Source of the DNA: Chlorobiaceae bacterium
GTDB lineage: Bacteria; Bacteroidota; Chlorobiia; Chlorobiales; Chlorobiaceae
NCBI GenBank assembly: GCA_013334975.1
Contig: JAAXWL010000004.1
Location: forward strand, 1-39,142
Length of the DNA stretch: 39,142 nucleotides
Direction of reading: 5' to 3'
Every line of letters begins with the position of its first letter. Positions within the stretch are counted from its first letter, which is position 1. A program made the translations under genes and the position numbers. Positions 14,381 to 18,799 of this stretch are shown one piece after another. Below the pieces are notes generated by a model that made no database searches, was not told the DNA's origin, and saw nothing but the letters and a program-made list of their open reading frames with translations.

Positions 14381-15697
14381 TTATTTCCTCTTCATGGTGA
14401 TTGCGTCGCCCTCAAGGGCGATCGCAACGCTATCGCCTTCGCCGATGGTGCCGGAAAGGATCATCTCCGACAGATGGTTGGTGATACGGCGCTGCATGAC
14501 CCGCTTGAGCGGGCGCGCGCCGAACGCCGGGTCGAACCCTGTACGGGCAAGCCACATCAGCGCCTCATCGGTGATTTCAAGAGAGATTCTCTGACGCATG
14601 GCTGTTGCCCGGATGTGGTCGAACTGGATCGTAACGATCTCTCTCAGGTTATCTCTGGTCAATGGGGTGAACAGAATAACCTCATCGATGCGGTTCAGGA
14701 ATTCGGGTTTGACCTGCTGCTTGAGCAACTGGAAGAGCTTGTCCTGCAGCGCTGCCAACATCGTATTAGCGTCCCGGCCTTCGAGGTGCTCCATTTCGCT
14801 CTGGATAAGCTGGGCGCCAATATTACTGGTCATGATGATGATGGTGTTCTTGAAGTTCACCAGGCGCCCCTTGCTGTCGGTCAGTCTTCCGTCATCAAGA
14901 ATCTGCAGCAGGATGTTGAAAACATCGGGGTGTGCTTTTTCGATTTCATCGAGCAGCACAACCGAGAAGGGTTTTCGCCGGACCGCTTCAGTGAGCTGGC
15001 CCCCCTCTTCGTATCCGATGTAGCCGGGAGGCGCCCCAACGAGTCGGCTGACGGTGTGCGATTCCATGTATTCGCTCATGTCGATGCGGATCAGGGCATC
15101 CTCGTCGTCGAAAAGGTAGTCGGCGAGAGTTCGGGCAAGTTCGGTTTTTCCGACCCCGGTCGGGCCGAGAAAGATGAAGGAGCCTATCGGGCGCTTTTCA
15201 TCCCCCATTCCTGCACGGGATCGCTTCACGGCGTCGCTGACCGCTCGAACAGCCTCGTCCTGGCCGATCACCCTGTGGTGAAGTTCGGCCTCGATGCCGA
15301 GCAGCTTCTGACGTTCTGACTGGAGCATCTTACTGACAGGGATACCGGTCCAGCGGGAGACGATGTCGGCGATATCGTCTGAATCGATCTCCTCCTTCAT
15401 GATCAGGTCGCCCGAAGCTTGCCGGGCCTCGATCTTGCGACTGTTTTCCTCGAGTTCCCGCTCTATCTGAATGATTTTTCCGTACCGTATCTCGGCAACC
15501 TTGCCATAGTCACCGCTTCGTTCGTAGTTTTCGGCCTGTACCCGTAGTTCTTCAAGCCCGGATTTGAGACGGCGAGAAGTCTGAATCAGCTCCTTTTCGG
15601 CATCCCACTGCGCCTTGACCGTTGCCTGCTCCTCTTTGAGGCTCGCGATCTGCTTTTCGATGTCGAGCAGTCGCTGCCGGGTATCTGCGGTGTTCAT
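14381..15697 (-). CDS. clpB: ClpB-like disaggregase, half-length (middle domain plus second ATPase only)
   Basis: This 438-residue AAA+ protein matches only the second half of ClpB (normally about 860 residues). Residues 1-100 are a charged coiled-coil matching the ClpB middle domain. The second ATPase follows: WTGIPVSKM near 116-124, Walker A GPTGVGKT at 178-185, Walker B VVLLDE at 246-251, TSN at 290-292 and a GARPLKR sensor in the last 60 residues. The N-domain and first ATPase are absent. The frame is intact with its own ATG and the upstream 131 bases before kdsA hold no remnant, so it is a stable short gene and not a recent break. I recall a comparably short second ClpB in C. tepidum; a full-length copy probably exists elsewhere. 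Confidence 0.88.
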
Positions 15698-15828: not shown

Positions 15829-16671
15829 ATGCAAAAGTTCTCGATAGGTCCCACGGCACTGCCGGGACACATGGGACTGTTCCTCATTGCAGGCCCTTGC
15901 CTTATCGAAAACCGGAAGATGGCCCTCGAGGTCGCCACCGAACTCGATCGCATCGGGCAGGAAGAAGGAATTCCTGTTATTTTCAAGGGCTCCTATCGCA
16001 AGGCGAACCGATCATCCTCCTCGTCGTTTACCGGCATCGGCGATCGTGAGGCGCTGGACATTCTCCGTGAAATCAGGGATACGTTCAATATGCCCGTTCT
16101 GACCGACGTTCATGAAACGTCGGAAATCGATCTTGCCGCCTCCTGTGTCGATGTGCTCCAGATTCCGGCCTTTCTTTGCCGACAGACGGAGCTGATCGTG
16201 GCTGCGGCCTCAACCGGACTTGCCGTCAACATCAAGAAAGGGCAGTTTATGGCGCCGGAGGATATGCGGTTTGCCGCAGAGAAGGCTGCTGCAACCGGGA
16301 ACCGGAAGATCATGCTCACCGAGCGAGGAACCACCTTCGGTTATCACAATCTTGTGGTTGATTTCCGGGCGCTCCCGATCATGGCCGATTCCGGCTGGCC
16401 GGTTATTTTCGATGCGACACACAGCGTCCAGTTGCCGGGCGCACAATCGGGCGTTTCGGGAGGTGATCGACGCTTTCTGCTGCCTCTTGCCCGTGCAGCC
16501 GTGGCAACCGGTGTGGACGGACTCTTTTTCGAGGTGCATCCTGAGCCGTCGAGCGCCATGTCCGATGCTGCAACCCAGGCGCCACTTCATGAATTCGGTG
16601 CTCTGGTGCGGGAACTCATGCAGCTCCAGGAGTGCATGTTGTCGATCAGGGAAGCTTTTCATTCACGTTAA
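15829..16671 (+). CDS. kdsA: 3-deoxy-8-phosphooctulonate synthase (Kdo-8-phosphate synthase)
   Basis: KdsA condenses phosphoenolpyruvate with arabinose 5-phosphate to make Kdo 8-phosphate for lipopolysaccharide. The 280-residue protein has [10 protein letters not shown] at residues 18-27, [11 protein letters not shown] near 53-63 and ATHSVQLPG near 202-210. Cys24 in AGPC marks it as the metal-dependent class; the metal-independent E. coli type has Asn there. An AGGA lies 8-11 bases upstream of the ATG. It is divergent from the ClpB-like gene and is followed 36 bases later by a KdsC-like gene. Confidence 0.95.
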
Positions 16672-16707
16672 TCCTCTACACCATTGAGCTCTTTCCAGTT
16701 TTTCGGT

Positions 16708-17256
16708 ATGCAGCCCTATCAGGCTGATCCATCCTCACAGATAAGCACCGCCCTCGACGGCATCAAGGCGCTGGTCATTTCACTTGACGGAGTCCTCAGT
16801 AACGGAACCATCGCGCTGGATGGCGAAGGGCGGGAGATGCCTGGGGTCTATTGCCGGGATATGATCGCTATACGGGAAGCGTTACGTCTCGGTATGCAGG
16901 TGGCTGTTATTGCCGGTCGCGATGCCCGAGCATGGCGCTCATTGCTTGAAACAGCAGGTCCGGTCGATCTTTATCTCGACGGCGAGGAGCGACTCGAAGC
17001 ATACGAATCGTTTAAAAGCCTCCACGGACTGCAGGACGATGATTGTGCCGGCATCGCTGACGATATCGAAGACCTTGAGATGCTCAAGCGGGTCGGTTTG
17101 CCGGTGACCCCGATCAACGGCGCCGATTACCTGCGCAACAGAGTGGCTTACATCTCGGTGTTCGAAGGAGGCCGCGGTTGCATCAGGGAGATCGTTGAGA
17201 TGATCCTCGAGCATCAGGGACGCTGGGAGTACAGTGAAAAGCAACCCCAGGGCTGA
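16708..17256 (+). CDS. KdsC-like HAD protein with degenerate active site
   Basis: This 182-residue protein aligns end to end with KdsC, the phosphatase that follows KdsA in Kdo synthesis, and it sits right after kdsA. The active site looks lost: motif I reads VISLDGVLSNG, with Ser25 where the nucleophile Asp of DxDG belongs; motif II reads VIAGRD with Ala69 for Thr; the motif III Lys appears replaced by Arg95; only the acidic pair of motif IV (ADD, 118-119) remains. The C-terminal GGRGCIREIVEMIL of KdsC is kept. So it is probably not a phosphatase of the usual kind and may be a structural or regulatory partner. Alignment is by eye. The start is uncertain: TTG at 16684 would add eight residues, and neither start has a good ribosome site. 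Confidence 0.78.
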   Translation: MQPYQADPSSQISTALDGIKALVISLDGVLSNGTIALDGEGREMPGVYCRDMIAIREALRLGMQVAVIAGRDARAWRSLLETAGPVDLYLDGEERLEAYESFKSLHGLQDDDCAGIADDIEDLEMLKRVGLPVTPINGADYLRNRVAYISVFEGGRGCIREIVEMILEHQGRWEYSEKQPQG

Positions 17257-17308: not shown

Positions 17309-18799
17309 TCAATGAAGATGGCGGCCATGATTACCTTTGTTCCTGACAGCGGACGGCTCCGGATTCAGAAATGCGGCCATTTCGGTGAGTGACATCGTGC
17401 CAACGATGTTGGTGCCGTGTCCGGGTTCGATATGCAGGTCTCCGTGATAGTCGATGCCGGATTCGATGGCGATCTCGAGTGCATCGAGCTTGCCCAGGAG
17501 GCTGTAGGCTGCCGATTGCGGTGTGGAACACGAGACTGGCGGATTGCCTCTTCCATGCACCACGTAACCTTCAGGAACCATCTCGCCATCCGGATAGTGG
17601 TGCCAGTGCGTCATTGCGCAACCGGTGCGTTCAAGCAACCGGGGAAAAAGGCTGTCTGGCCTTAACCTCAAGAGAATGCTGGCGATCATGGCATTGCCAA
17701 CCGCATGGGCAATGATGGTCAGCGTGTCGAACGATGGTTTCGAGACCATATCGGGGGGTAGTCCCTTCGGCGTGGCCAGCCGTGCCCGTCCGTTTTCAAA
17801 GCCGATTTCCACCAGATCGTACCTTCCGTCGAGGTCGGTTTTCCGGCATCCCGAACGGGTGGTGATGATACGTACCGGCGGTATGGGGACCAGCAGCACC
17901 CTTCCGGCAAGCCTCACCGGAATGATGGTCTGGCCATCTGATGAGGCAGGCGTCTCATGATCCGCCATCCAACACCCATTATCGGCTGCCGGAAGGGTGG
18001 CTACCGGGAGTTGACGCGCAAAAAAGCCATAACTCATACCACTTCGTTCATCCAGGTATCGTGCCACAATCTTCCGGTAGAAGCCGCTCCGATAGTCGAG
18101 CGATTCGCGAGCGGTGTGGTTCATGAAGTGGTGGTTGGATGTCCAGAGGCGACCACAAGTCACGAAATCCTCCGCAATTTTCCTGAACTCCGCCGTCGAG
18201 CTATCGAGCGCTCCCGGCAGAATATCGAGGTCACCTTCACGGGGAGGCACCACCTGCGCGGTGATTTTAGGAATCAGCGATTCGAGCACATCACGGAGTT
18301 CCGGCAGTGGCGTCCCGAAGGTGGCGATGCCTCCGTTCATACTGCACACCGTCCAGGAGTCATCACTCACATAAATCAGGAGATGCACCATCTCCCAGGC
18401 CAGACGCCCGATGACCGCGTCGAGTGTCTCCTGGGGCGTCTGGTCGGCACTTACCGGCGGGGGTCCGTCGTAGATGCCGACAATAAGATTGTTGTACAGT
18501 GTTGAAACCCGATTGATCGGCAGGAGTTCGTCGGGAAAGACTCCCGGTGCAAGAACGGCTGTGCCGGCACGGTAACGGCAACCGGATTGACCGGCATCAC
18601 GGTGTTCAACGACCGAGACGCCGCATCTCCTGAAGGTCTCTCCCAGGGCAGCAGTGAACCGTGCGAGCCTTGGGCTCAGTTCGGGAGCCGGGTCTATGGC
18701 GATCTGCAGCGATGCGCTCATCGCCTGGGGAGTGAGCGGAGTCGTTGACGGAATGCCGAGCAGGCGGTTCAGCCAGAAAGATCCGATGCGTTCAGTCAT
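17309..18799 (-). CDS. Conserved-looking protein of unknown function
   Basis: I do not recognise this 496-residue protein. It has no signal peptide, no clear membrane segment and no nucleotide-binding loop that I can see. Notable are a hydrophobic GRVLLVPIPPVRII segment in the middle and a histidine-rich C-terminal third (THWHHYPDGEMVPEGYVVHGRG, then DYHGDLHIEPGHGTN), which could bind metal, and an NHGRHLH end. Codon use and a long uninterrupted frame argue that it is a real gene. It lies 56 bases after nadK on the same strand and is probably the last gene of the pyrE-tyrA-nadK transcript. Confidence 0.75.
   Translation of the reverse strand: MTERIGSFWLNRLLGIPSTTPLTPQAMSASLQIAIDPAPELSPRLARFTAALGETFRRCGVSVVEHRDAGQSGCRYRAGTAVLAPGVFPDELLPINRVSTLYNNLIVGIYDGPPPVSADQTPQETLDAVIGRLAWEMVHLLIYVSDDSWTVCSMNGGIATFGTPLPELRDVLESLIPKITAQVVPPREGDLDILPGALDSSTAEFRKIAEDFVTCGRLWTSNHHFMNHTARESLDYRSGFYRKIVARYLDERSGMSYGFFARQLPVATLPAADNGCWMADHETPASSDGQTIIPVRLAGRVLLVPIPPVRIITTRSGCRKTDLDGRYDLVEIGFENGRARLATPKGLPPDMVSKPSFDTLTIIAHAVGNAMIASILLRLRPDSLFPRLLERTGCAMTHWHHYPDGEMVPEGYVVHGRGNPPVSCSTPQSAAYSLLGKLDALEIAIESGIDYHGDLHIEPGHGTNIVGTMSLTEMAAFLNPEPSAVRNKGNHGRHLH

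Follow-up and report, generated by a model that had tools for sequence, protein, structure and literature searches.

A probable KdsC-derived pseudophosphatase conserved across the green sulfur bacterial order Chlorobiales

The protein encoded directly behind kdsA in a member of the Chlorobiaceae is, with little doubt, a conserved pseudophosphatase derived from KdsC, and its relatives throughout the order have probably been kept for a binding role that involves no catalysis. The window, by which we mean the whole 39,142-nucleotide stretch of DNA that was analysed, carries on its plus strand the gene for Kdo-8-phosphate synthase, kdsA (15829..16671), which scores above the NCBIfam equivalog cut-offs (NF003543, 387 versus 242 bits; TIGR01362, 369 versus 314 bits) and is the first of a gene pair. 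The second gene, on the same strand (16684..17256), encodes the pseudophosphatase, hereafter pseudo-KdsC, a protein of 190 amino acids recognized from its open reading frame, KdsC-family homology and predicted KdsC fold. Its scores fall narrowly short of the curated cut-off of TIGR01670 (106.1 versus 106.95 bits) and clearly short of that of NF007019 (106.6 versus 208 bits). An earlier note on this DNA had described a KdsC-like protein beside kdsA with a lost phosphatase active site; the placement is confirmed, and the proposal of a pseudophosphatase is now strongly supported by the order-wide loss of the catalytic nucleophile together with purifying selection on the gene.

The start of the gene was revised. 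The ATG at 16708 that had been taken as its first codon is preceded by a conserved peptide (SSFQFFG in Chlorobaculum, GFQYFG in Chlorobium) that is opened by TTG or GTG at the equivalent point in the copies of both genera, so we place the start most likely at TTG 16684, and all residue numbers given for pseudo-KdsC count from that codon. TTG is the opening codon of 78 of 94 copies in the order-wide comparison. The gene mostly follows kdsA, and in most Chlorobaculum copies its start codon lies 12–15 nucleotides past the kdsA stop, an arrangement in which the two genes are likely to share a transcript. The genus labels Chlorobaculum (group g1) and Chlorobium (group g2) were assigned from named relatives and group codes; the named relatives of pseudo-KdsC are mostly Chlorobaculum genomes, and the genus of the window matches Chlorobaculum. 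Within the window, kdsA and pseudo-kdsC are in one frame and separated by TAA and 12 nucleotides alone (16669–16684), and at two further loci (L014 and L019) the kdsA frame extends and ends in a TTGA that overlaps the TTG start. A read-through fusion of the two genes was considered and rejected: the frames agree, with a single TAA between them, in 40 loci, but many other genomes differ and the arrangement is not conserved. Convergent with pseudo-kdsC is an open reading frame of 496 amino acids (17309–18799, minus strand) with no Pfam match at E 0.001, and an Rfam scan of the window returned no matches.

Alignment to E. coli KdsC accounts for each position of the altered active site, all on the plus strand. 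Ser33 of motif I (SLDG; codon TCA, 16780..16782) aligns with the nucleophile Asp32, Ala77 of motif II (IAGR; 16912..16914) with Thr76, Arg103 of motif III (16990..16992) with Lys102 and Ala125 of motif IV with Gly124. The first three replacements had been read correctly from the sequence by the earlier note, as had the survival of the motif IV acids, Asp126 and Asp127; to this we add the correction that the motif IV glycine is lost, GDD having become ADD (Ala125–Asp127, 17056..17064). Also retained are the second aspartate of motif I, Asp35 (16786..16788), invariant in all copies, and the C-terminal GGRG loop of KdsC (17167..17178). The mechanism of HAD phosphatases requires the first motif I aspartate. 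Another aspartate that could occupy the nucleophile position was looked for and none fits, as strand beta-1 of the structural model ends at Ser33 and the alignment to KdsC is ungapped there.

The loss extends through the order. Among the 98 Chlorobiales-type genomes searched, 95 hold the kdsA-family copy, pseudo-KdsC or its orthologue; motif I is readable in 94 of these, the copy in genome G105 being cut before the motif, and the nucleophile aspartate is absent from 93, which rules out chance or sequencing error as the cause of Ser33. The sole copy with the aspartate is in G039, a draft genome that is the single member of family f4. Six different residues (P, S, N, T, A and V) stand in its place elsewhere: Ser in 14, Pro in 5 and Ala in 1 of the Chlorobaculum copies, Pro in 62 Chlorobium copies, and Asn in 4, Thr in 3, Ser in 3 and Val in 1 of those from other families. 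The aspartate is present in 30 of the 30 best-matching Bacteroidia homologues used as controls, from the class of G054, whose copy groups with B. thetaiotaomicron KdsC. Three genomes (G004, G083 and G088) have neither pseudo-kdsC nor kdsA; an assembly gap over one locus is a likelier cause than a joint biological loss.

Compared across families, the catalytic residues appear to have eroded stepwise, in families f2 and f3, then in Chlorobium, then in most Chlorobaculum. Copies from f2 and f3 have lost the nucleophile alone and keep the motif II serine, motif III lysine and motif IV glycine. The motif III lysine, present in families f2–f4, is gone from all Chlorobaculum and Chlorobium copies; motif II, which reads Ser in Chlorobium and families f2–f4, reads Ala in 14 of 20 Chlorobaculum copies, and the motif IV glycine has become alanine in 19 of those 20. 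Asp35, Arg58-Asp59, Arg79, Asp126, the three glycines of the C-terminal loop and Arg168 are invariant throughout the order, so part of the old active site would seem to be constrained still.

Phylogenetic analysis joins the pseudo copies and the G039 copy in one clade (support 98/99), whose sister group is Bacteroidota KdsC, with the solved enzyme of B. thetaiotaomicron among its members (99/95). Since the sole other family member in these genomes groups with KDN-9-phosphate phosphatases, the tree marks the dead protein as the true KdsC orthologue in green sulfur bacteria. The intact G039 copy falls inside the pseudo clade, its orthology backed by the common neighbourhood kdsC–nadK–tyrA. A single pseudo clade, equivalent to one loss of the nucleophile, is not rejected by an AU test (p 0.43), so one loss and two are indistinguishable by this test.

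Pseudo-KdsC is under purifying selection. Its median dN/dS (Nei–Gojobori) is 0.173 in Chlorobaculum and 0.123 in Chlorobium, with corresponding kdsA values of 0.100 and 0.083. All of these are approximate figures from pairwise comparisons with dS close to 1; they exclude neutral decay and do not measure function. Over the first 20 codons dN/dS is 0.067 in Chlorobaculum, the lowest in the protein (remainder 0.183), and 0.082 in Chlorobium. The reading frame is open in all readable copies, and a selected non-catalytic role is likely.

The protein is predicted to retain the HAD fold of the KdsC type, which has no large cap. In Foldseek its AlphaFold model (pLDDT 88.7, pTM 0.85) matches E. coli KdsC structures best, and the KdsC proteins of Yersinia and B. 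thetaiotaomicron are also among the top matches, with E about 1e-17 to 1e-18 to 2R8Z, 3HYC and 4HGN. Ahead of this fold lies a conserved N-terminal extension, MSSFQFFGMQPYQADPSSQ (16684..16740, plus strand), in which pLDDT drops below 50 at residues 1–5 and 10–14, within the best-conserved part of the protein. An FG[MIV] motif near the N terminus occurs in the pseudo lineages of families f1, f2 and f3; neither the intact G039 copy, whose open reading frame has no space for such a motif, nor the 30 Bacteroidia homologues have it. A tail that is conserved yet predicted to be disordered, and that accompanies the loss of catalysis, is a candidate docking peptide. In G039, an open reading frame of 162 amino acids, PIN/NYN-like by eye, lies directly before the intact kdsC at the place of the extension (L138 679-1167, plus strand). 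It may be an insertion, and such a new upstream reading frame in this draft genome could have removed the motif from the intact copy.

A role as partner or scaffold of KdsA, put forward in the earlier note, fits the tight linkage to kdsA in the Chlorobiaceae and the conserved disordered peptide. Against it, the two genes are not adjacent in some f2 genomes, lying about 6 kb apart in G037 and G044 and on different contigs in G043. KdsA and pseudo-KdsC folded as one read-through chain gave a pTM of 0.59 and no confident interface, with the N terminus still disordered, though with 34 sequences and no oligomer this result carries little weight in either direction. We regard KdsA as about a one-in-three prospect for the partner.

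The window organism presumably makes Kdo, because kdsB (over its cut-off) and waaA/kdtA are present in addition to kdsA. That another enzyme performs the Kdo-8-phosphate step, as had been suggested, is thus implied by the rest of the pathway. The proposed search for a second intact, true KdsC in the genome found none, only a paralog that groups with KDN-9-phosphate phosphatases and sits beside neuB. A missing KdsC activity would be tolerable, because other bacteria have the remaining pathway enzymes and make CMP-Kdo without KdsC, which is reportedly not essential in E. coli (PMC5615194). The open literature yielded nothing on Kdo in Chlorobium LPS.

The paralog (G000:C144:3210-3674, in genome G000, whose contig C81 is that of the window) is intact, and almost every genome of the order has it. 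In the tree it joins the KDN-9-phosphate phosphatase of B. thetaiotaomicron (support 99/93), and it has the Glu and Lys whose positions are altered in entries 4HGQ and 4HGR (E56 and K67 of BT1677); the window pseudo-KdsC has Arg and Thr there. Because it adjoins a NeuB-family gene in every locus examined, the paralog itself probably acts on a nonulosonate 9-phosphate. Three genomes (G010, G096 and G108; 77–91% complete, G108 being at 91%) have a pseudo copy and no paralog that we could see. Neither the paralog nor its neuB was found in G039, a draft in which one gap could explain the absence of both neighbouring genes. As a side observation, the phosphatase and a short NeuB-family synthase of 289 amino acids form a two-gene unit (G000:C144:3174-4658; L134) whose adjacency is conserved through the Chlorobiales and was not found in G039.

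We propose that pseudo-KdsC, without its nucleophile, would be unable to form the aspartyl-phosphate intermediate and therefore would not dephosphorylate Kdo-8-phosphate. It may persist as an assembly without catalytic function, probably a tetramer as in KdsC, and the flexible FG motif at its N terminus would dock on a partner, most likely KdsA or another Kdo-pathway enzyme, which the assembly may stabilise, organise or regulate; the former active site may have kept the ability to bind a sugar phosphate. The phosphatase that makes free Kdo would then be another protein, whether the KDN9P-type paralog beside neuB or an enzyme unrelated to it. The most specific form of this proposal, in which a pseudophosphatase that gained a docking peptide serves the Kdo pathway, and probably KdsA, as an obligate subunit or an allosteric regulator and a sialic-acid-type phosphatase took over Kdo-8-phosphate hydrolysis across the whole order, we consider unlikely to hold in full.

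Several other explanations bear on these observations. The step-by-step loss of catalytic residues from family to family is what a functionless gene in decay might display, but stops, frameshifts and dN/dS near 1 would be expected of a decaying pseudogene, and instead the frames are open, dN/dS is 0.12–0.17 and the gene is missing only where kdsA is missing too; decay is refuted as far as sequence allows, and we give it practically no weight. The pathway's need for a Kdo-8-phosphate phosphatase, together with the failure to find a second true KdsC and the invariance of Asp35 and of the first motif IV aspartate, could be taken to mean that the protein is still a phosphatase by some other route, with Asp35 or a residue from a neighbouring subunit as nucleophile. 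This is very improbable given that the HAD mechanism needs the first aspartate, that the residue there varies among copies and includes Pro, Val and Ala, which cannot substitute for it, and that the motif III lysine is lost in both Chlorobiaceae genera. A more serious alternative makes the protein a ligand sensor and not a scaffold, its dead site binding Kdo-8-phosphate, Kdo or phosphate and so tuning KdsA by feedback, or another enzyme. The order-wide invariant set of active-site residues exceeds the needs of a pure scaffold; still, the requirements of fold and oligomer could account for part of that conservation, and the loss of the motif III lysine, like that of motif II in most Chlorobaculum, should weaken phosphate binding, which leaves the sensor rather doubtful.

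A further possibility concerns who carries out the reaction and is compatible with a non-catalytic helper: the neuB-linked paralog may hydrolyse Kdo-8-phosphate, and its assumption of this step would have allowed KdsC to lose catalysis. Intactness and near-universal presence in the order speak for the paralog, and G039, the sole genome with an intact KdsC, is without both the paralog and its neuB. This pattern has to be set against the draft state of G039, the phylogenetic grouping of the paralog with KDN-9-phosphate phosphatase and its Glu/Lys pair, its constant place beside neuB in the loci examined, and G108, which at its high completeness has a pseudo copy and no visible paralog. On balance a takeover is quite conceivable, falling a little short of probable.

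The preferred reading, a KdsC-derived pseudophosphatase retained for binding, can be set beside several known systems. With KdsC itself (YrbI; HAD subfamily IIIA, type C0; TIGR01670) the window protein shares its fold, its place beside kdsA, 36% identity to B. thetaiotaomicron KdsC (4HGN), the arginine after motif II, the motif IV aspartate and the GG-G loop; it differs in lacking the nucleophile aspartate, the motif II Ser/Thr, the motif III lysine and the motif IV glycine and in having the extra conserved N-terminal peptide. KDN-9-phosphate phosphatase (BT1677 type; PDB 3E81; NF058599), with which the intact Chlorobiales paralog groups, belongs to the same HAD subfamily, whereas the pseudo protein is without its Glu/Lys signature and branches with KdsC. 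By analogy, the closest precedent comes from vertebrate CMP-sialic acid synthetase, whose C-terminal KdsC-like domain has no phosphatase activity and has been described as providing the catalytic domain with a tetrameric platform (PMC8636478). That domain (PDB 3EWI; sequence match 1e-14) is likewise a KdsC-fold module in an acidic-sugar pathway, but it forms one chain with the enzyme that it serves, whereas the Chlorobiales protein is separate. Phenylphosphate carboxylase offers another case, its delta subunit (TIGR02726) being a member of the KdsC family that was drawn into a different enzyme as a subunit; the match to pseudo-KdsC is remote (66 bits against a cut-off of 282).

Should our reading be correct, one step of Kdo synthesis is misannotated throughout the green sulfur bacteria, as the gene that looks like kdsC by position and ancestry cannot catalyse the reaction, and their real Kdo-8-phosphate phosphatase lies elsewhere than in the kdsC orthologue. 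The inactive KdsC-like module of vertebrate CMP-sialic acid synthetase would also gain a bacterial counterpart in pseudo-KdsC, a free-standing protein, and the stepwise loss of an active site through related families, with one intact relative, would be well suited to studying how enzymes turn into non-enzymatic partners. We found no description of a Chlorobiales KdsC pseudophosphatase in the open-access literature searched.

The window also contains, next to kdsA (14381–15697, minus strand), the second half of ClpB alone (model positions about 425–852); the first half (1–433) is encoded by a separate, distant gene (G000:C46:7353-8642). No match exceeds the TIGR03346 cut-off, separate full-length ClpB/ClpC-like proteins exist, and no paper on a split ClpB in Chlorobiales was found in the literature searched. 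The split occurs in five genomes of three families (that of the window, G003, G031, G037 and G038), single-contig ones included.
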